Positions 5 to 63,864 of a stretch of DNA of 64,000 bases are shown here, piece after piece (the stretch's first letter is position 1; each line of letters starts with the position of its first letter). A model generated the notes under the pieces. It was not told where the DNA came from, did not search any database, and saw only the letters and a list, made by a program, of their open reading frames with translations. The stretch is from Halorussus limi. Its GTDB lineage: Archaea; Halobacteriota; Halobacteria; Halobacteriales; Haladaptataceae. The stretch covers positions 1 to 64,000 of the forward strand of contig NZ_CP096660.1 in the NCBI RefSeq assembly GCF_023238205.1. Reading direction: 5' to 3'. A program made the translations under genes and the position numbers.

Positions 5-46
5 CGTTTGCGAATGCGTTACCGTTTCCGTAAACGGAACCGTAAA
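5..46. repeat. 6-bp phased CGNWWN block, copy 1
   Basis: CG dinucleotides fall at 5, 11, 17, 23, 29, 35 and 41, exactly every six bases, separated by variable, mostly A/T four-base fillers (TTTG, AATG, TTAC, TTTC, TAAA, GAAC, TAAA). This is the first of a family of such blocks around the ParA gene. It may extend left beyond the window. The consensus CGNWWN is its own reverse complement in the shifted register, so no strand is assigned. The block ends just upstream of alternative in-frame starts of the ParA gene at 46 and 64. Confidence 0.85.
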
Positions 47-90
47 TGTACTTTCTCCCACAGATGTCTGACGAAGGATTAAGTGAGTTG

Positions 91-112
91 TTTGCGTTTG
101 CGCAAACGCAAA
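91..112. promoter_or_regulatory. 22-bp perfect palindrome of phased units before parA
   Basis: The half-site TTTGCGTTTGC at 91-101 is followed immediately by its exact reverse complement, giving a 22-bp perfect palindrome with no spacer. CG dinucleotides at 95, 101 and 107 keep the same six-base spacing as the neighbouring phased blocks. It ends two bases before the preferred ATG of the ParA-like gene (115), which is where an autoregulatory operator or a partition-protein binding site would be expected. The operator role is inference. Confidence 0.7.
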
Positions 113-114
113 TT

Positions 115-1005
115 ATGTCTCGGTCCATTCGCGCCTGCACCTTCCTCGACAAGGGAGGAACGGGCAAGACCACGACGGCGGCCCACCTCGGCGTCGCGCT
201 CGCCGAGCGAGGCAACGACGTGTTGCTCATCGACCTCGCTGGCAAACAGGGCGACCTCGTCAAGCACTTCGGCCGGTGGGAGACGGTCGAACGCCAGATC
301 GCCGAGGACGACGACTGGCCGAACATCTCGACGGTCTTTCAGGACCAGTGGGGCGCCATCGCCGAGAAGTTGGGCGACGCCGCGGTGGACGACCTGATTC
401 TGGAGACCGACGAGGGCGTCGACCTGATTCCGGCCCATCCGGGACTCGACAGTCTCGACGCCGAACTCGGCAACATCGACGACGCTCACGACCGCTACTC
501 CCGACTCGACTCGTTTCTGGACGAGTACATCGAACCGCTCGGCTACGACGCCGTCCTCATCGACCTGCCGGGCCTGACGAACAACGTCAGCTACAACGGC
601 CTCTGGGCCGCCCGGAACGTCATCGCCCCGGTCGAGATGGGGCCGTTCGAGTCCGAGCAGGCCGAGGCGCTCCGGGCCGACCTCGACAAAATCGGCGCGA
701 ACTTCGACGTGGACGTGAAACTCGCCATGGTCCTCCCGAACAAGGTCGACACCCGCACGAAACTCGCGGAAGAGTACCTCGACGCCTTCGAGGAGGCCTA
801 CCCAGAGGCGTTCGTCTCCTCGCACGTCCCCGTGAGTCAGGACATCCGGAACGCAGCGGAGTCGGGGCGGACCGCGTTCGCGCTGGAAGAACCGTCAACG
901 ACCGCCGAACGCGCGCGAGAAGCGTTTCTAGAGAACGCCGAGACGCTGGTCGAGCGGCTGGACGAGTCCGAACGCGCCGCCCCGGCGGGAGGTGAACTCG
1001 CGTGA
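115..1005 (+). CDS. ParA/Soj-family partition ATPase
   Basis: A ParA/MinD-type P-loop ATPase of 296 residues that would use ATP-driven dimerisation on DNA to position a chromosome, plasmid or other cargo. The deviant Walker A motif KGGTGKTT is at residues 13-20, with the signature lysine K13, followed by the IDLAGKQGDL switch region and the hydrophobic IDLPG Walker B strand. The reading frame is open back to 46, but the ATG at 115 is preferred because the ATPase fold begins there and the preceding 24 codons run through the 22-bp palindrome. It overlaps the next gene by four bases (GTGA), so the two are translationally coupled. No helix-turn-helix precedes the ATPase, so this is a short ParA (type Ib-like). 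Confidence 0.85.
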   Translation: MSRSIRACTFLDKGGTGKTTTAAHLGVALAERGNDVLLIDLAGKQGDLVKHFGRWETVERQIAEDDDWPNISTVFQDQWGAIAEKLGDAAVDDLILETDEGVDLIPAHPGLDSLDAELGNIDDAHDRYSRLDSFLDEYIEPLGYDAVLIDLPGLTNNVSYNGLWAARNVIAPVEMGPFESEQAEALRADLDKIGANFDVDVKLAMVLPNKVDTRTKLAEEYLDAFEEAYPEAFVSSHVPVSQDIRNAAESGRTAFALEEPSTTAERAREAFLENAETLVERLDESERAAPAGGELA

Positions 1006-1394
1006 GCGACCCCGACCTCGAAGAACTCCGCCAGCAGACCCAGCGCACCGACCGACTCGCGGAACCCGACGCCCGAGACGACGGCACCGACGACCTGCTC
1101 GAAGACCTGGTGGACGCGCTCGCGGCCATCGACTCGGGCGAGCAGGCCAAGACGTTCGCGGCCAGAGACGAGTCGGTGACCGCGCTCCTCTCGACGCTCG
1201 ACGACCGCCAGCACGACCTCGAAGCCGTCGGCACCGCCTTGCAGGGCGCGCTCGGTCGCGAAATCGAGACCGACTCGCTCGACCGGAGCGAAATCGTCCG
1301 CCTCGCGGTCCGACTCGGTCTCCGCGAGGCCGCCCCCGAGTACCTAGACCTGCTCGCCGACGCGTCCGGCGAGTACGCGCGCCGAAACGTCTGA
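1002..1394 (+). CDS. Small acidic partner of ParA, candidate partition adaptor
   Basis: A 130-residue acidic protein whose GTG start overlaps the ParA stop codon. I do not recognise a named family. The C-terminal half holds an SEIVRLAVRLGLREA-type helix followed by another helix, which resembles the helical part of ribbon-helix-helix proteins. The N-terminal half is Asp/Glu/Gln-rich and probably helical. Short ParAs usually pair with a small DNA-binding protein encoded directly downstream, so a centromere-binding or cargo-adaptor role is a reasonable inference. A six-base phased block begins 15 bases after its stop codon. Confidence 0.7.
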   Translation: MSDPDLEELRQQTQRTDRLAEPDARDDGTDDLLEDLVDALAAIDSGEQAKTFAARDESVTALLSTLDDRQHDLEAVGTALQGALGREIETDSLDRSEIVRLAVRLGLREAAPEYLDLLADASGEYARRNV

Positions 1395-1408: not shown

Positions 1409-1456
1409 CGTTTGCGGCATCGTTTACGCAAACGTTTCCGTTTTTGTTAACGTGAG
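1409..1456. repeat. 6-bp phased CGNWWN block, copy 2
   Basis: CG occurs at 1409, 1415, 1421, 1427, 1433, 1439 and 1451, and the missing 1445 position is TG, the expected product of a C-to-T change. The spacing is exactly six throughout. The block starts 15 bases after the stop of the small ParA partner gene. Confidence 0.85.
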
Positions 1457-1574
1457 TGCTTCTGTTCGCGCTTTCGGCGACGATGCCGTGTTTCATCCGA
1501 ATTTCATTTTGGTCTGACTCCGGGTCCGATTTCGTTTCTCTCGCTTCTCGCCGCCGGGGTTTCCATCCTGAATA

Positions 1575-1616
1575 CGTTAGCGCATACGGAAACGATACCG
1601 TAAACGGATACGGAAA
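1575..1616. repeat. 6-bp phased CGNWWN block, copy 3
   Basis: CG dinucleotides at 1575, 1581, 1587, 1593, 1599, 1605 and 1611 give seven consecutive units. The next position (1617) is CA. Fillers are TTAG, CATA, GAAA, ATAC, TAAA, GATA and GAAA. The region from 1395 to 1826 contains no convincing gene and is occupied mainly by copies 2, 3 and 4. Confidence 0.85.
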
Positions 1617-1700
1617 CAGATTTGTCACCGCGGTGTCGATGCTTGCCCGGGGGCGCTGGTGAGTCACGCGTCGGAGAGTAGGCCGATAGCCGGACTCTGA

Positions 1701-1742
1701 CGGAAACGTTTGCGTAAACGGTAACGCAAACGAAATCGCAAA
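1701..1742. repeat. 6-bp phased CGNWWN block, copy 4
   Basis: CG dinucleotides at 1701, 1707, 1713, 1719, 1725, 1731 and 1737 give seven consecutive units, with CA at 1743. It is the third block between the ParA operon and the next gene. The order of fillers differs from copies 1 to 3, so the blocks share phase and composition rather than an exact sequence. Confidence 0.85.
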
Positions 1743-1795
1743 CAATGAGTCGGCTTCTGTCCGAACGTAGTTCTATTCTGACATGCGGCGTAGAG

Positions 1796-4238: not shown

Positions 4239-4310
4239 CGTTATCGTTTGCGCTTTCGAATTCGTTTACGAAATCGTACACGAATTCGAATCCGGAATCG
4301 TTTCCGAAGT
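4239..4310. repeat. 6-bp phased CGNWWN block, copy 5 (longest)
   Basis: CG dinucleotides at every sixth base from 4239 to 4305 give 12 consecutive units without a break. Fillers are mostly A/T (TTTG, CTTT, AATT, TTTA, AAAT, TACA, AATT, AATC, GAAT, TTTC and others). The block lies in the 296-bp divergent gap between the MCM-like gene and the hydroxyacid dehydrogenase, 123 bases upstream of the dehydrogenase ATG. Reading frames across it produce an Arg-X dipeptide ladder, which explains spurious basic ORFs here. Confidence 0.88.
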
Positions 4311-4432: not shown

Positions 4433-7400
4433 ATGTCTTCTCCCCCCGCGGACGGCCCCGACTTCGAGTCCTACCGTGACTCGCTCGGTATCGACGCGCC
4501 CGACGACCCGGACCACGCCGCCCTCGCGGACGACCTCCGGCGGGCCTGCGAGGGCGAGGTACGCTTCGACGAGTACAGCCAGATTCTCTACGCGACCGAC
4601 GGGAGCATCTACGAGGCGCGCCCGGCGGGCGTCGTCTTCCCGACCGACGGCGCGGACGTGCAGGCCGCGGTGGAGGTTGCGGCCGACCGCGGCGCGCCGG
4701 TCCTGCCCCGCGGCGCGGGGTCGTCGCTCGCGGGCCAGACGGTCGGTCCCGGTTGCGTGGTCCTCGACCTGTCGCGACACATGGACGCGGTCCTCGACGT
4801 GAACCCGGACGCCCGGCGCGCGACGGTCCAACCCGGCGTCGTTCAGGACGACCTCGACGTCGTCCTCGAAGAGTACGGTCTGAAGTTCGCGCCCGACCCC
4901 GCGTCCTCCAACCGCGCGACGGTCGGCGGCGGCATCGGGAACAACTCGACGGGCGCCCACTCGGTCCGGTACGGCATCACCGACGCCTACGTGGAGGAAG
5001 TCGAGGCCGTCCTCGCAGACGGAAGCCGGATTCGCGCCCGCGAAATCGAACTCGACGGCGCGGCGTGGGACGACATCGTCGCGGGCGACGACCGCGAGGC
5101 CCGCCTCTACCGGACGGTCCGGGCCATCGTCGAGGAGAACGAGGACGAAATCGAGGAGCGATACCCGAACCTCAAGCGGTCGGTGTCGGGTTACAACATC
5201 CACGAATGCGTTTACGTTAACGAAAGCGGAAACAAATGCGTAAACTTGTCCAAACTGTTCGTCGGCGCGGAGGGCACGCTGGGAGTCGTCACCGAGGCGA
5301 CCCTCTCGCTGGTGTCGAAACCCGACGACACCGCGCTGGCGCTCTACTGCTTCTCGGACCTGCTGTCGGCGATGGAGGCGGTGCCGGTCGCGCTCGACTA
5401 CGACCCGAGCGCGGTCGAACTCATGGACGACGAGGTGTTCCGATTGGCGCGCGAGTCCGCCGAGTACGCGGAGTACGCCGACCCGATTCCCGACGACGCC
5501 GCGGCCGCGCTGATGTTGGAGTTCGACTCGGAGGTCCACGACGACTTGGCGGACGCCGTCGCCGAAACGAACGCCGAGTTCGTCCACGCGGGAGCGGCGT
5601 TCGACGTGTTGGAGGCCTACGACGACGACGCGCAGGCGAAGCTCTGGAAGCTCCGAAAGGCGGCGATTCCGCTGTTGATGAGCATGGAGGGCGACCCGAA
5701 GCCCTACCCCTTCATCGAGGACGCGTCGGTTCCCCCCGAGGAGTTGGCCGAGTACGTGCAGGGGTTCGAGGGCGTGCTGGAGGCCCACGACACATCGGCG
5801 GCGTACTTCGCCCACGCCGGGAGCGGCACGCTCCACGTCCGGCCGGTGCTGAACCTGAAGGAAGCGGCGGGCGTCGAGAAGATGCAGTCTATCGCCGAGG
5901 ACGTGACCTCGCTCGTGTTGGACCACCGGGGGTCGTTCTCGGGCGAACACGGCGACGGCCTCGCTCGGACGCAGTTCAATCCGAAGCTGTACGGTCCCGA
6001 GTTGTGGAGCGCGTTCAAGCGACTCAAGACCGCGTTCGACCCGGACTGGCGCATGAACCCCGGCAAGGTGGTGTTTCGGGACGCGCCCGACGACGTCGGA
6101 CCGACCGATTCCGACCGCGGGGTCGGGACCGACATGCGCGAGAACCTGCGGTACGGCCCGACCTACTCGTCGCTCGAACCCGCCACCGCGCAGGACTTCT
6201 CGGCGGAGGGCGGCTTCTCGCACCTCGTGGAACTCTGTAACGGGTGTGGCACCTGCCGCCAGACCGACTCGGAGGTGATGTGTCCCTCCTACCGAGGGAT
6301 GAACGACGAGATGGCGACGACCCGGGGCCGGGCGAACATGCTCCGGGCCGCGATTTCGGGGGAGCTACCGCCCGACGAAATCCACAGCGAGCGCTTCCAG
6401 AAGGAGGTACTCGACCTCTGCTTGGGATGCAAGGGCTGTCAGAGTGACTGCCCTACGGGTGTGGACCTCGCCAAACTCAAGGCCGAGGTCAAGCACCGCT
6501 ACCACGAGGAGGAGGGCGCAGGCCTTCGAGAACGTCTGTTCGCCGATGTGGACCGACTCGCGCGAGTCGGGTCCAAACTCGCGCCCGTCTCGAACTGGCT
6601 GGCCGACCTACCGGGCGCCGGCGTCGTCGCCGAGAAGACCCTCGGTATCGCCCGCGAACGCGACTTCCCGTCGTTCGCCAATCAGTCGTTCGAGTCGTGG
6701 TTCGCGGCCCGCGGCGGCCCGCGGATTTCCGCCTCCGAGGCCGCCGACCGGGTTCTGCTCGTCCCGGACACCTACACCAACTACGTCTACCCCGCGACGG
6801 GCCGGGCCGCGGTGCAGGTCCTCGAAGCGGCGGGCGTCCGCGTCGAAGTGCCCGACGCCGACCCGAGTGGCCGCCCGGCCTACTCCGAGGGGTTCCTCGA
6901 CGTTGCCCGGGAGCGCGCGGCGTCGAACGTAGAGACTCTCGCGCCCCGCGTCCGCGACGGCTGGTCGGTCGTGTATCCGGAACCCTCCGACGCCGCGATG
7001 GTGCAGGACGAGTACCGCGACCTCCTGTCGGAGTCGCCCGAGGCCGACCTGCTCGCCGAGAACGCCTACGGCGTATGCGAGTACCTCGACCTGACCCGAC
7101 GCGACGACGCCGTCGACTTCGACGCGCCCGACGCCCGACTCGCCTACCACGGCCACTGCAACCAGAAGGCGCTGGGCACCGCCGACCACGCCGCCGCGGT
7201 CCTCGCCCGGGCGGGCTACGAGGTGGCGGCGCTCGACTCCGGGTGCTGTGGCATGGCCGGTAGCTTCGGCTACCACGCGGAACACTACGACCTCTCTCAG
7301 TCCATCGGCGCCATCTTGCGCGACCGGATTTCGGAGGCCGACGCCGACGAGGTGGTCGCGCCCGGCGCGTCCTGTCGCTCGCAACTGGAGTCCGAACGGC

Positions 7401-7447
7401 CGACCCACCCCGTCGAGAAGTTGGCCGCGGCGCTCCCGCACCGGTAA
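4433..7447 (+). CDS. GlcD/GlcF fusion: FAD- and Fe-S-dependent D-2-hydroxyacid dehydrogenase
   Basis: A 1004-residue flavo-iron-sulfur enzyme that would oxidise a D-2-hydroxyacid (lactate, glycolate or similar) and pass electrons to the respiratory chain at the inner face of the membrane. The PCMH-type FAD-binding domain spans about residues 55-290 (PRGAGSSLAGQTVG is the pyrophosphate-binding stretch), the FAD-oxidase C-terminal domain about 290-545, two ferredoxin-type Cys clusters begin at C602 and C663, and two cysteine-rich CCG domains follow (C938-C939 in GCCGMAGSFGY). This is the usual fused bacterial/haloarchaeal arrangement. Oddity: residues 257-271, just before the SKLFVGAEGTLG motif, are encoded by a six-base phased block and lengthen a loop that is normally short. 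Confidence 0.9.
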   Translation: MSSPPADGPDFESYRDSLGIDAPDDPDHAALADDLRRACEGEVRFDEYSQILYATDGSIYEARPAGVVFPTDGADVQAAVEVAADRGAPVLPRGAGSSLAGQTVGPGCVVLDLSRHMDAVLDVNPDARRATVQPGVVQDDLDVVLEEYGLKFAPDPASSNRATVGGGIGNNSTGAHSVRYGITDAYVEEVEAVLADGSRIRAREIELDGAAWDDIVAGDDREARLYRTVRAIVEENEDEIEERYPNLKRSVSGYNIHECVYVNESGNKCVNLSKLFVGAEGTLGVVTEATLSLVSKPDDTALALYCFSDLLSAMEAVPVALDYDPSAVELMDDEVFRLARESAEYAEYADPIPDDAAAALMLEFDSEVHDDLADAVAETNAEFVHAGAAFDVLEAYDDDAQAKLWKLRKAAIPLLMSMEGDPKPYPFIEDASVPPEELAEYVQGFEGVLEAHDTSAAYFAHAGSGTLHVRPVLNLKEAAGVEKMQSIAEDVTSLVLDHRGSFSGEHGDGLARTQFNPKLYGPELWSAFKRLKTAFDPDWRMNPGKVVFRDAPDDVGPTDSDRGVGTDMRENLRYGPTYSSLEPATAQDFSAEGGFSHLVELCNGCGTCRQTDSEVMCPSYRGMNDEMATTRGRANMLRAAISGELPPDEIHSERFQKEVLDLCLGCKGCQSDCPTGVDLAKLKAEVKHRYHEEEGAGLRERLFADVDRLARVGSKLAPVSNWLADLPGAGVVAEKTLGIARERDFPSFANQSFESWFAARGGPRISASEAADRVLLVPDTYTNYVYPATGRAAVQVLEAAGVRVEVPDADPSGRPAYSEGFLDVARERAASNVETLAPRVRDGWSVVYPEPSDAAMVQDEYRDLLSESPEADLLAENAYGVCEYLDLTRRDDAVDFDAPDARLAYHGHCNQKALGTADHAAAVLARAGYEVAALDSGCCGMAGSFGYHAEHYDLSQSIGAILRDRISEADADEVVAPGASCRSQLESERPTHPVEKLAAALPHR
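5203..5244. repeat. 6-bp phased CGNWWN block, copy 6, inside a coding region
   Basis: CG occurs at 5203, 5209, 5215, 5221, 5227 and 5239, with CA at 5233, so seven units with one altered. The block lies in frame in the dehydrogenase gene and encodes residues 257-271 (HECVYVNESGNKCVN), a surface loop by comparison with GlcD-type enzymes. The low GC of this stretch contrasts with the surrounding codons. Confidence 0.85.
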
Positions 7448-8647: not shown

Positions 8648-9915
8648 CCGGCGACTCGCCCGAAATCGCGAGCGACTCTCGCGACCTGACCTGCTACCGG
8701 TGCGGTGCGAACGCGGCGTTCCCCGACCGCAAGCGGTGCGACTGCGGCGAACCGCTCTGGTTCGACACCGACGCCGCGGCCGAGGCGTTCGCGTGGCCCG
8801 ACGCGGGAACCGGCGTCAGTCGCTACGCCGACCTCCTCCCCGTCGAAACTGGGGGCGACTCCCGGACCGACGGCGGCGTGAGCGCGGCCGCCGGCTCGAC
8901 GCCGCTCGTCCGCGCGTCGGGCCTCGACGCCGACGCGGGGTGCCGACTCTGGCTGAAAGACGAGAGCGAGAACCCGACGGGGAGTTTCAAGGACCGGGGG
9001 AGCGCGGTGGGCGTCGCGTGGGCCGCGCGGGCGGGCCGCGAGTGGGTCGGAACCGTCTCGCACGGCAACATGGCGATGAGCGTGGCCGCGAACGCCGCGG
9101 GGGTCGGCGGCAGCGGGTCGCCCCGCGCGCTGGTCCTCGTTCCCGACGACATCTCCGAGGAGCGACTCGCCGCCATCGCGCAGTACGACCCCGAACTCGT
9201 CCGGGTCGCGGGCGACTACGGCCGCCTCTACCGCGAGACGCTCGACGCCGACGCGCCGGTCGAGTTCGTCAACTCCGACACGCCCCTGCGCGTGGCCGGC
9301 CAGAAGACCACGGCGCTCGAAATCTGCGAGGCGTTCGCCGCGGAGACGCGCACTCGGACGAAGCGCGCGCCAGACGCCATCGTCCTCCCGGTCAGCAGCG
9401 GCGGCCACGCCAGCGCGACGTGGAAGGCCCTGCGCGAACTCCGGACCGCCGGCCTCTTCGCGGCGGCCGACCTCCCGCGCCTCTACTTCGTGCAGGCCGC
9501 GGCCTGCGACCCCATCGCCGCGGCGTACCGCGATGGAAACGACTCGGTGATGCCCGCGGACGACGCCGGCGACACCGTCGCCTACTCCATCGCCAACGCC
9601 GACCCGCCGAGCGGGACCCGGGCGCTCGCGGCGGCCCGCGCGACCGACGGCGCGGTCCTGTCGGTCCCGGACGACGAGATTCTCGACGCGAAGGCGACGC
9701 TGGCCAGCGAGGCGGGGTTCTGCGTCGAACCGGCCTCGGCGACGACGCTCGCCGGAATTCGGCGACTCGCCGACTCGGGCGAACTCGACGCCGACGACGA
9801 CGTAGTCGCGGTGCTGACCGGCACGGGGTTCCGGGAACTGGACGCCGGGAGCGCGACCACCGAGACGGTCGCGCTGGGGGACCTGTCCGAGCGCCTGCGG
9901 GCGCTCACCGCGTAG
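8644..9915 (+). CDS. thrC: Threonine synthase-like PLP enzyme
   Basis: A 423-residue fold-type II PLP enzyme. The N-terminal zinc-ribbon-like segment (CYRCGA and RCDCGE) is typical of archaeal threonine synthases. The PLP lysine is in ENPTGSFKDRG around residues 108-118, the phosphate-binding stretch is in SSGGHASATWKA, and a late GTG motif precedes the C terminus. Threonine synthase converts O-phosphohomoserine to threonine in the cytoplasm. Because haloarchaea often carry several paralogues and this copy is coupled to an aldolase gene, another beta-elimination or replacement reaction is possible. The gene tail overlaps the oppositely oriented small gene by 11 bases. Confidence 0.82.
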   Translation: MTGDSPEIASDSRDLTCYRCGANAAFPDRKRCDCGEPLWFDTDAAAEAFAWPDAGTGVSRYADLLPVETGGDSRTDGGVSAAAGSTPLVRASGLDADAGCRLWLKDESENPTGSFKDRGSAVGVAWAARAGREWVGTVSHGNMAMSVAANAAGVGGSGSPRALVLVPDDISEERLAAIAQYDPELVRVAGDYGRLYRETLDADAPVEFVNSDTPLRVAGQKTTALEICEAFAAETRTRTKRAPDAIVLPVSSGGHASATWKALRELRTAGLFAAADLPRLYFVQAAACDPIAAAYRDGNDSVMPADDAGDTVAYSIANADPPSGTRALAAARATDGAVLSVPDDEILDAKATLASEAGFCVEPASATTLAGIRRLADSGELDADDDVVAVLTGTGFRELDAGSATTETVALGDLSERLRALTA

Positions 9916-12902: not shown

Positions 12903-12962
12903 CGTTTTCTAAAACGCAAACCTGGCCAAAAACGTAAACGTTTGCGTAAATGCAAACGACTC
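12903..12962. repeat. 6-bp phased CGNWWN block, copy 7 (degraded)
   Basis: CG occurs at 12903, 12915, 12933, 12939, 12945 and 12957, all in the same six-base register. Intervening positions are CT, CC, CA and TG, so the block keeps phase but has lost several CGs. It overlaps the last base of convergence between the NUDIX-like and HTTM genes and is non-coding. Confidence 0.7.
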
Positions 12963-17039: not shown

Positions 17040-20000
17040 CTACAGCGACAGGTAGGGAATCGTCGCCCGTTCGCTCGCGGAGTAGTCCAGCGCCTCTGAC
17101 TGGTCGGTGCCGTCGGGCGTCACGAGGTCGATGACGTTCGGATTCGCGTCGTCGTCGCGTCCGCCGCCGAAGACGTAATCGCCGGCCTCGGCCTTCACTG
17201 GGCGGATGCGGCCGGGACTGTACCCGTCCTGCCCGAGCAGGAGCGGGACCAGTTGCTTGCCCGAGAGGTTTCCACCCACGGCCGACTTGGGCACCTCGAT
17301 TTTTATCGCGTCTATTGATTGATAGCCCGACAGGCGCACGTCGCGCGTAACCGTCGACCCGTCGGCGGCCTCGACCCGCGGCGCGACGAATCCTTCTGCG
17401 AACACCCGGTACTGGTAGGGGGCCTCGAAGGTCGCGTTGACGCCCTCGCGGGCCTCGGTCGTGCCACCGGAGGCGTCGGGGTCCCGGAGGTAAATCTGGA
17501 CGTTCTGGACCGAAATCGCGTTGCCGCCCCACGGGTTCGTGAGTTCGCCCGCCAGTCGGACGAGGAACTGGTAGCTCTCGTCGGTCTCGTAGACGCCGAA
17601 CGAGTCGATGTCGAACGCGCCGTCGACGAACGCACCGGCCTTCGGGTAGACGTAGCTCCCCGGCCCGTGGTCGTCGTCCGCGGGGTCGTCGAACTCGGCG
17701 ACCGGGTCGCCCACGTCCACGCGAGCGACCGTCTGCCGGGCGACCGAGGTGCCGACCTCGGTCACGTCGCCCGCCGTCGCCGCGACCACCGTGAGTTCGG
17801 TCTCGCCGTCGCCGACCGCGAGGTCGACGGAGAACCGCCCGTCGCTCCCGACTTCTCGCCGGACCGTCTCGCCTGCGGTCTTGACGACGACCTCCGCGCC
17901 GTCGGTCGTTCCCGAGACCGTGACCGTCTCGCTACCGACGACGCTCGGCGGGAAGTCGACGTCGAGGCTCGGCCCGTCGGGACGCTGGCCGTCGGCGTAC
18001 CGCTTCGCGACGAATCCGGGTCGCTCGACCGGTTCGCCCGCGTCGATGGAGTGGGCGAGGCGGACGAACTGGGCCATGCTCCACGCCAGCGGCGTGGCCG
18101 ACCCAGTCCCCGCGCCGAACTCCCAGCCGAACGCGGTGGGTTCGGGCCGGTCCCAGACCTGTTCGGGAATCATCCGGCCGGAGTTGGCGAACCCGGCCAT
18201 CGTCTCCAGCAGGTTCCGGGGTGCGGTCGCGCCCGAGTCGGTGCCCGCGAGCAGTTCGTACTCGCCGCGCTCGCCCGAGAAGATGGGCCAGAGCCGACCC
18301 TTCCCGGAGTTGTCGAGGCTCCAAGGCGCTCCTGCGGGGTACTTGTCGCTCCCGTCCTGCTCGCCGTAGCCGTCGCCGTTGTACCGGTAGAACGCCGGGC
18401 CGTGGGGCGTCTCCACGCGGATGGTGTCGTCCACGACCGACAGCGAGTTGCGTACCACCTCGTCGTCCCACGGTTTGACCCCGAGGCGGACCAGTTCGAG
18501 GAAGCCCGCGTCCACGACGTTGCGCTCGTCGAGTCGCGGCCCGCCGTTGTTGATGTCGAGTAGCGCGCCGTCCTCGGGGTCCCTGTCGTCGTTGATGCGG
18601 AAGTAGTAGGGCGTCTCGTCGTGGGTCTCGGTGCCCGTCTCGGTCGCCATCCAGTCCTCGGTGCGGGCCTGCCACTCGTCGGCCAGCGCGAGGTAGACCA
18701 GCGCGTCGGCGCGTTCGCCCTCGTCGGCCGCGAGTCGGGCGGCGCAGGCGAGACCCGCGATTTCGGCCGCGGTGGTCGAGGGCGAGTACCCCGACTCCTC
18801 CTCCCATCGCTCCTGTCCCGTCGCGGGACCGTTGGCGACCACGTAGTCCGCCGAGCGCGCGACGTTCTCGTAGTCGAAGCCCACCGCGTCGAAGTCCTCG
18901 TCGCGGCGAGACAGGTACTGGTAGGCCATCACCTGCGGGAACGAGATGTTGTCCATCTGCTCGCCGCCCCACCGAGTCCGGCCGTCGAGGAAGGTGTTCT
19001 GCGGGAGGAAGCCGTCCTCGCGCTGCTGGTACTCGTAGAGGTATTCGAGCGCCGCGAGCGCGCTCTCGTCGTCGCCCATCGCCGACAGCGCGGTGTACGA
19101 CTGATAGAGGTCCCGCGACCAGACGTAGTTGTAGCCGTAGTCCGCGGGTTCGTCGGCGACGACCGCCTCGCCCCACGGGACGCTCGGACTCGCGACCCCC
19201 GCGCCGGGGAACCGCTTGGACTCGACCGCTTTCAGGACCATCGCGGCCGCGTCGTACTGCCGCCGGAGGGCGGGGTCGCCCCGGACCGAGTCGGGGGTCT
19301 CGACCGTCTTCAGATACTCGCGCCACCCCTTCGCGTAGTCGGCCCGGACCGCGGAGAACGACGCCGAGAGCGCGCCGGTCGCCTCGTCGGCGGCCGCGCG
19401 CTCGCCGTTGTCCTCGGCGAACCCGAGCGCGACCGTCTCCGTTGCCTGCGGCGCGTTCCCGGCCACCTTCCCGACGAGCGCGACGTTGCCCTCCGCGCTG
19501 TCGTGAGGCGCGAACGCCCCGTCTTCGAACAGCGCCTCCACGTCGCCGCCGACCACGTCGGCGCTCGCGGCCTCGAACCCGCCGTCGGCGGCGAGCGCGA
19601 CTGCCACGTTGTAGGGGTCGCCGTTCTCGTCCAGAATCACGGCCCCGTCGTCGCCGGTGGTGTCGCGGGCCGTCAGATAGCGGTCGCCGCCCTCCCCGCG
19701 GACCCGGGCCGCGTCGCCCTTGCCGCTGTTCGAGAGTGCGGTGTCGGCGACGACGTAAAGGTCGTACTTCTCGGGGCCGCGCGACCGGAAGCGCACGTCT
19801 GCGAGGACGGCGTCGTGGCCGGGGTGGGCGGCGTACTCGACTTCGAGGCTCCACCCGCGCTCGGCGTCTTCGACAGTCTGTTCGAAGACCAGCGCGTCGA
19901 CGTCGGCCATCTCGGTCGTCCGTTCGATTGGCGACTCGTCGTCGTCCTTCCTGCTCCGGTCGAACGTCCGGGCGGCGTACCCCGAGTCCGGGTCGGCCAC

Positions 20001-62340: not shown

Positions 62341-63864
62341 GTGACCGGTCGGACTAACGTCGCGACGACCGGCGGAACCCCCGGCGGCGCGCTTTCGACG
62401 CCCGAACCAGAACCCCCTTTCGCGTCGCGTCCCAAGGAGTCGCCGATGGAGAACACCGGACCGAGCGAACCCGGGGCGAGCGAATCCGGACCGAGTGACC
62501 CGGAAGCGCGGGAACTCGGAGGGAGCGACGCCGGAGAGCGCGACCCGGGACCGAGCGAAGCGAGCGGACGCGACGCCGGACGGGGCGGCGAGCGCGGCAT
62601 CTCCCGACGCCAGTTCGCCAAGGCCGCGGTCGCAATCGGGGGCGCGTCGGCGCTGTCGGCCTGCATGAGCAGGAGCGACGACCTCGACGTGAAGACCGGG
62701 CCGGACGACCTCTCGACGCTCCCCGCGCGCCAGCACGCGTGGGACGAGTTCCTGAACCGGGACCAGCACGGGAACGTCGTCGCGCCGCGCCACCGCGTCC
62801 TCCTCCTGCTGAACTACGCGGGCGACGGCGCGCCGAGCGACGCGGACCGTAAAACCGCCGAGGCGGCGTTCCGAAGCCTCGAACGCGCCTACAGACGGGG
62901 CAACGACGGCCTGCTGTTCACGGTGGGCTACTCGCCGTCGTACTTCGGACGATTCGACGCCGAACTGCCCGACACCGTCGATTTACGGGAACCGAAGGCG
63001 CTGGCGCCCTTCGAGGACCCCGAGTTCGACTGCCAAGACGCCGTGGTTCACCTCGCCAGCGACCACGCCGAAGTCGTGCTGGCGGCCGAGCAGGCCCTGA
63101 TCGGCGAGAAAACGACGGTCAACGGCGTCGAGATGGCGGCCGACCTCTCGGGGATCTTCGAGCGGGCCGACCGCCGGACGGGGTTCGTCGGCGAGGGCCT
63201 GCCCGCCGACCATCAGGACGTGGACGGAATTCCCGACTCGAAACCCGTTTCCGACGACGCGCCGCTCTACATGGGATTCAAGTCGGGTTTCCAGAAGAAT
63301 CAGGCCAGCGAGGACCGCGTGACGATTCGGGAGGGCCCGTTCGCGGGCGGCACCACTCACCAACTCTCGAAGATAGAACTGAATCTGGAGCAGTGGTATC
63401 AACAGGACAGTCGGTCCCAGCGCGTCGGAAAGATGTTCTGCCCGGTCCACGCCGAGGAGGGCCTCGTGGAGGGCGCGGGCGACAACCTCGGCGACTCCGC
63501 GAAGATGGAGGAGAAGGGCTGTCCCGCCCACGCCGAGGACCACGCCCGGACGAAAGGGGTGGTCGGCCACTCCCAGAAGTCGGCCCGCGCGCGGGACGAC
63601 GACGGGTCGCCGCTGATGATTCGCCGGGACTTCGACTCGACGGACGACGGGCAGGCGGGCCTGCACTTCGTCTCACTCCAGCGCACCATCTCTGACTTCG
63701 TGGACACCCGCGACGCGATGAACGGCGAAGACTTGGCCGAGCGGTCGGCGGTCGGCCAGACGAACAACAACGGAATCCTGCAGTACATGGAAGTCCTGCG
63801 CCGCGGGAACTTCCTGCTCCCGCCGCGGAAGCATCGGTCGCTTCCGACGCCGAACCCGGTGTGA
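62341..63864 (+). CDS. DyP-type peroxidase-like Tat lipoprotein
   Basis: A 507-residue exported protein. After an extended Ser/Pro/Glu-rich N-terminal stretch there is a Tat motif RGISRRQFAKAAVAIGGASALSAC with a lipobox Cys. The mature part resembles the dye-decolourising peroxidase family: LLNYAGDGAPS in the first ferredoxin-like half, GFKSGFQKNQASEDRVTI corresponding to the haem-proximal GXXDG region, and the late LHFVSLQRTISDFVDTRDAMNG. I recall a haloarchaeal group (DUF7405) of this sort. Whether haem ligands remain is not certain. The GTG at 62341 and the ATG at 62446 are both possible starts, the second giving a more typical signal length. Confidence 0.72.
   Translation: MTGRTNVATTGGTPGGALSTPEPEPPFASRPKESPMENTGPSEPGASESGPSDPEARELGGSDAGERDPGPSEASGRDAGRGGERGISRRQFAKAAVAIGGASALSACMSRSDDLDVKTGPDDLSTLPARQHAWDEFLNRDQHGNVVAPRHRVLLLLNYAGDGAPSDADRKTAEAAFRSLERAYRRGNDGLLFTVGYSPSYFGRFDAELPDTVDLREPKALAPFEDPEFDCQDAVVHLASDHAEVVLAAEQALIGEKTTVNGVEMAADLSGIFERADRRTGFVGEGLPADHQDVDGIPDSKPVSDDAPLYMGFKSGFQKNQASEDRVTIREGPFAGGTTHQLSKIELNLEQWYQQDSRSQRVGKMFCPVHAEEGLVEGAGDNLGDSAKMEEKGCPAHAEDHARTKGVVGHSQKSARARDDDGSPLMIRRDFDSTDDGQAGLHFVSLQRTISDFVDTRDAMNGEDLAERSAVGQTNNNGILQYMEVLRRGNFLLPPRKHRSLPTPNPV

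Follow-up and report, generated by a model that had tools for sequence, protein, structure and literature searches.

Introduction

The delta/omega system of plasmid pSM19035, a type Ib ParABS system, combines a ParA protein with a small DNA-binding partner and has several separate sites, each made up of 7–10 gapless short units in both orientations and overlapping the par promoters; at least four contiguous heptad units are required for ParA activation by omega (PMC9499535). In the parFGH system of TP228 the centromere consists of short degenerate boxes with AT-rich spacers, and the small protein that coats it also represses the par operon (PMC7308502). Among the archaea, the SegAB system of the Sulfolobales pairs a ParA homologue with a small DNA-binding partner and has sites that are enriched near its own genes and mostly intragenic (PMC12284271, PMC5120986), and the AspA-ParBA system of the Sulfolobus plasmid pNOB8 is a plasmid partition system with a ParA ATPase (PMC5120986).

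Here we describe a candidate partition locus on replicon C2 (414,603 bp, i.e., 414.6 kb) of the 4.62-Mb genome of Halorussus limi; "the window" denotes the stretch of 64,000 nucleotides from position 1 of C2 that was analysed. The locus shares with type Ib ParABS a short Walker-type ParA without an N-terminal DNA-binding domain, a small partner gene directly downstream with a 4-bp overlap, the pair being conserved across haloarchaea, and short repeats in tandem next to the par genes (6/12-bp period at 14 of 14 loci). It resembles pSM19035 in having a ParA with a (predicted) small DNA-binding partner and multiple separate sites of consecutive short units that overlap the par-gene promoters, but the unit is 6 bp (CGTTTN) rather than 7 bp (WATCACW), the arrays span 15–20 kb with one of them inside coding sequence, and the searches made found no sequence homology between omega and the partner protein, here called cbp. 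Short degenerate units and a small coating protein that doubles as operon repressor would also be common to TP228 and the system proposed here, although TP228 has tetramer boxes in a single parH region whereas Halorussus has CG dinucleotides phased every 6 bp. Like SegAB, the locus has an archaeal ParA homologue, a predicted small DNA-binding partner and sites near its own genes; SegAB is however chromosomal, with 13-bp palindromes, one or few per site, and membership of SegAB was rejected, as the PDB search showed no similarity of cbp to SegB and the sites are 6-bp tandem arrays. The likeness to pNOB8 lies in the ParA ATPase and in the proposed role in archaeal plasmid partition, but pNOB8 uses three proteins and spreading from one 23-bp palindrome, as opposed to two proteins and tandem 6-bp arrays.

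Results

The parA gene (115..1005, forward strand) encodes a Walker-type ATPase of 296 aa with its ATPase domain from about residue 11 (Pfam AAA_31, 2e-18; CbiA, 2e-16). The product matches Soj/ParA relatives in the PDB, and its relatives are annotated 'ParA family protein'. Further, distant ParA homologues are found on other replicons (G000 C3:275, C4:242, and C5:61369), two of the three right where their contigs begin. The 130-aa product of cbp (1002..1394, forward strand) is presumed to be a centromere-binding protein. No Pfam family scored above cut-off and no significant family match was found in Pfam or NCBIfam, where weak RHH-like matches have E-values of about 0.7–6.5; Foldseek with a mediocre structure model (mean pLDDT 70) returned no known centromere-binding fold and no PDB fold match, and the cbp profile did not match SegB in the PDB.

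Around this gene pair lie about nine arrays with CG dinucleotides in a 6-bp phase, spanning roughly 15–20 kb. They were located by a phase-aware scan of all 414,603 bp of C2 (block score) and by a strict pattern, CG-NWWN x4-CG (five CGs), with the reversed pattern as control; score and pattern were designed on the window's own blocks, and the relatives provide independent data. The strict pattern occurs 19 times in the 4.62-Mb genome, and each occurrence falls inside 7 kb around parA, from C2 413,043 over the join to 5,228; the reversed pattern gave zero matches in the whole genome. Of the ten C2 blocks with a score higher than 21.5, nine are located from 413,043 to 12,962, again across the join; such coordinates presuppose a circular C2, which is an assumption. 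Lone intergenic CG-phased sites that are weaker or single occur far from parA at C2:125514-125543 (L002) and C2:331481-331516 (L016).

Upstream of parA there is an array at 5..52 (score 25.6), with a counterpart about 110 to 130 bp before parA in relatives, and, at 91..110 just ahead of the start of parA, a short palindromic stretch with CG phasing, TTTGCGTTTGCGCAAACGCA. A like arrangement is seen in Natrialbaceae and H. caseinilyticus, and the stretch is presumably an autoregulatory operator of parA-cbp. Two blocks near the end of C2 (413043-413078 and 413248-413295), found in the C2 scan, adjoin position 1 if C2 is circular. Directly after cbp follows the array at 1409..1452 (scanner end 1492; counterpart at about +1290 in relatives), and then come intergenic arrays at 1569..1617 (scanner end 1622; score 28.0) and 1701..1744 (scanner end 1748; score 27.6). 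The longest array has 12 units (4239..4310, score 49.8) and is intergenic, upstream of glcDF, with a counterpart at about +4.1 kb in relatives. The outermost right-hand array is at 12903..12962 (score 25.5); in G002 and G004 strict matches occur at +12.4 and +13.5 kb from parA. These two genomes also have a few remote sites roughly 100–145 kb from parA.

The commonest letters after CG are TTTN (223/864 units) and NAAA (200/864) among 102 blocks from 14 Halorussus genomes. The array unit occurs in both orientations, reading CGTTTN or CGNAAA, and has one free letter, and the blocks therefore have their phase but little else in common. They are not listed by Tandem Repeats Finder because the units share only phase and CG. 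A tandem repeat unlike these blocks, about seven 15-bp units with consensus GAACCCGGAGCGAGC, occupies positions 62451-62559 of the window.

One array, the sole member of the set clearly inside a gene, lies in the reading frame of glcDF (4433..7447, forward strand), a fusion of an FAD-linked oxidase with an Fe-S/CCG domain (Pfam FAD-oxidase_C, 1.5e-58; FAD_binding_4, 1.7e-38) that resembles NCBIfam YdiJ/GlcD/GlpC with scores below the cut-offs. The original prediction of an in-frame phased block of six CGs and one CA, encoding residues 257–271, proved correct in its positions. The array (5203..5244) has CG at 5203, 5209, 5215, 5221, 5227, and 5239 and CA at 5233, spaced by 6 bp, and corresponds to codons 257–271 just before KLFVGAEGTLG. 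The block is also non-random and kept in frame: it scores 26.3, whereas the best of 3000 synonymous-codon resamplings with the gene's own codon usage reached 20.3 (codon-null p ~3e-4, the floor of the test), and the highest score elsewhere in glcDF is 9.6. The GC content of third codon positions is 0.62 in the loop and 0.92 in the remainder of the gene. Structure prediction of the GlcD part from a six-row alignment reached a mean pLDDT of 31.

Thirteen further Halorussus genomes have a parA orthologue (86–97% identical). Each of them has 6–9 blocks with scores of 14 or more at a distance of up to 20 kb, and the positions of these blocks recur. Counting that of the window, there are 12 Halorussus genomes in which no more than about 7 kb separates glcDF from parA, and in every one glcDF contains the block. 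The codon-null p is at the floor of 3e-4 in 11 of these; G007, left out of that count, has a block score of 23.4 and its loop was read separately. Had the orthologues all had the same loop with unrelated codons, this would have told against the original prediction; the relatives with glcDF near parA instead preserve the phase together with the AT-rich codons, which are missing from the copies outside Halorussus and from that of H. marinus (G009). The H. marinus glcDF is 106 kb distant from parA, and its loop is made up of ordinary GC-rich codons with no block (codon-null p 0.70); the genes between parA and glcDF are retained, and the gene pair after glcDF moved along with it. In H. pelagicus (G005) glcDF is missing from its usual place. 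The array at +4.1 kb persists in both genomes. Loop-free trees place H. marinus beside G006, nested among block bearers, which favours loss of the block after glcDF had moved, as a single event; AU tests did not reject the alternative that H. marinus never had it (p 0.08 for protein, 0.11 for DNA).

Of the genomes without the parA orthologue, G010 has no such blocks. In G017 tblastn found no parA-cbp orthologue, the gene order being otherwise kept, and glcDF nevertheless has an eroded, enlarged block, which speaks against the partition role proposed below; the phased blocks in this genome (L107) are at 9826-9909 (glcDF) and 18371-18424, 9.3 kb on. Strict matches among genomes without a parA orthologue number six in G001, four in G012 (62% complete), and four in G017; the five sites listed for G001 are chiefly CGCATC-type hexamer repeats on contigs C1, C2, C4, C5, and C7.

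The parA-cbp pair is also found on plasmids or contigs of Natrinema, Natronococcus, Natronorubrum, Haloterrigena, Haloplanus, Halobacterium, Halocatena, Halorubrum, Halarchaeum, Haladaptatus, and Halococcus. The cbp gene directly follows parA in Halorussus, Natrialbaceae, Haloplanus, Halobacterium, Halocatena, Halarchaeum, Haladaptatus, and Halococcus. In Natrialbaceae, CG arrays of up to 14–19 units lie directly after cbp, and in other genera arrays with the words CTATAG, CGTATA, or ATATGG are found at corresponding places. Every locus tested for period, drawn from Halorussus and nine or more further genera, showed a 6/12-bp periodicity (p≤0.01) on one or both flanks of parA-cbp. The count was 20 of 28 flanks, against 1 of 84 tests at the control lags 5/10, 7/14, and 8/16; the p values are rough, as they derive from mononucleotide shuffles. 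In all loci compared, the cbp motif KTxxx[R/W]D has R together with CG words and W together with CG-less words, and two or more switches are needed on the ParA tree; the association was spotted post hoc and is a lead. It suggests that lineages may co-evolve cbp with a new array word.

Discussion

The block in glcDF is very probably one of about nine partition-site (centromere, parS-like) arrays, which are candidate targets of cbp, and the one among them that is dual-coded. We infer that cbp binds the arrays and that they serve in partition. In the mechanism that we propose, cbp would bind the tandem 6-bp units CGTTTN/CGNAAA and coat each array, the coated arrays over roughly 15–20 kb would jointly make up a cargo complex, and ParA-ATP on the nucleoid would move this complex at division. 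The analogy with the omega heptads of pSM19035 and with parH of TP228 is the reason for proposing that cbp would cover consecutive units and offer them to ParA. Through the arrays at the start of parA, cbp would also act as repressor of its own operon, and their position suits such autoregulation. One array would occupy a tolerant loop of glcDF, the protein having taken the array-dictated residues CVYxNxNGNECVN; the 6-bp phase suits a reading frame because G-NNNN-C makes up two codons (GNN NNC). We lean towards a still broader view, namely that there is a haloarchaeal partition family with 6-bp-phased arrays as centromeres, whose word shifts with a residue of cbp, and that the Halorussus arrays have come to extend over about 15–20 kb, one of them overwriting enzyme codons, so that the centromere would shape a protein and be kept or lost with distance from parA.

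It is conceivable, if unlikely, that the arrays are only operators, with no part in partition, by which cbp or some other regulator keeps parA-cbp and nearby genes repressed. Arrays do overlap the parA start and lie upstream of glcDF and other genes, and the small partners of ParA are often autorepressors, such as ParG (PMC7308502). However, about nine arrays over 15–20 kb do not match the promoters of one regulon, one array is placed about 750 bp into coding sequence and another 12.8 kb away, and it is linkage to parA, not the host gene, that determines whether glcDF has an array.

Roughly half as much weight can be given to the arrays being iterons of a replication origin, or a DNA-structure or nucleoid element, that is independent of ParA. 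Replication origins and partition loci are often close neighbours, and both Haladaptatus halobius and Halobacterium sp. DL1 have an orc1/cdc6 gene close to parA-cbp. On the other hand, in each lineage examined the arrays directly adjoin the parA-cbp pair, on large as well as small plasmids, and the array word tracks a residue of cbp.

For the array inside glcDF, the original prediction was that a mobile or templated element had been inserted where GlcD-type proteins usually have a shorter loop. The loop is indeed long relative to the solved bacterial and mitochondrial relatives, whose alignments stop there, but not relative to haloarchaeal orthologues, which have loops of 21–22 codons. Block-free loops have 22 codons in G009, G018, G029, G031, G032, and G035 and 21 codons in G020, G021, G022, and G033, and the loop has 22 codons in 11 of the 12 parA-linked Halorussus copies, including that of the window genome. 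As loops without a block are equally long, the glcDF block arose by substitutions, not by insertion. An inserted element, which we rate as extremely improbable, would accord with blocks being alike at several places and with the longer loops of G003 (+8 codons, +24 nt) and G017 (+14 codons, +42 nt), both gains being multiples of six; yet there is no extra DNA relative to the empty-site orthologues with the same 22-codon loop, loop length is equal in nearly all linked and most block-free copies, and the block sequences differ among themselves while holding recurring positions in relatives. Extra codons in multiples of the unit, for which the original prediction proposed a check, are absent from 11 of 12 linked loops, and loop growth is seen only in G003 (4 hexamers) and G017 (7 hexamers), where it looks like later local expansion. 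Near-perfect 12-bp tandem duplications are seen in the intergenic arrays of G006 (L101, 11723-11830, GGAAACGATAGC) and in a Natronorubrum array (L128, 11237-11374, CTTACGTTTGCG), and duplication of 12-bp units is a plausible route of array growth. The more general part of the original prediction, that block sequence can arise at new sites, holds: in kind the glcDF block belongs with the window's other blocks, and such sequence can settle inside a gene. Least credible of all is that the phase is a by-product of the amino acid sequence and codon usage of the loop, since the residues alone score moderately (null means 9.5–18.9 in linked genomes) but synonymous-codon resampling refutes such chance, the observed score exceeding all 3000 resamplings in every linked genome tested, with rare AT-ending codons chosen in the loop and the identical phase found in intergenic DNA.

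The nature of centromeres and their layout on archaeal chromosomes and plasmids is an open question (PMC5120986), and no description of a haloarchaeal plasmid centromere was found in the limited collection of literature that was searched. Given a sequence code, a candidate protein to bind it and two comparisons offered by nature, the moved glcDF of H. marinus and the missing parA-cbp of G017, the question of the archaeal centromere becomes testable in culturable haloarchaea. If the centromere reading is true, the dual-coded array would be an unusual case of a segregation site that dictates part of the sequence of an enzyme, and the shifting array words may offer a system for studying the co-evolution of protein and DNA.
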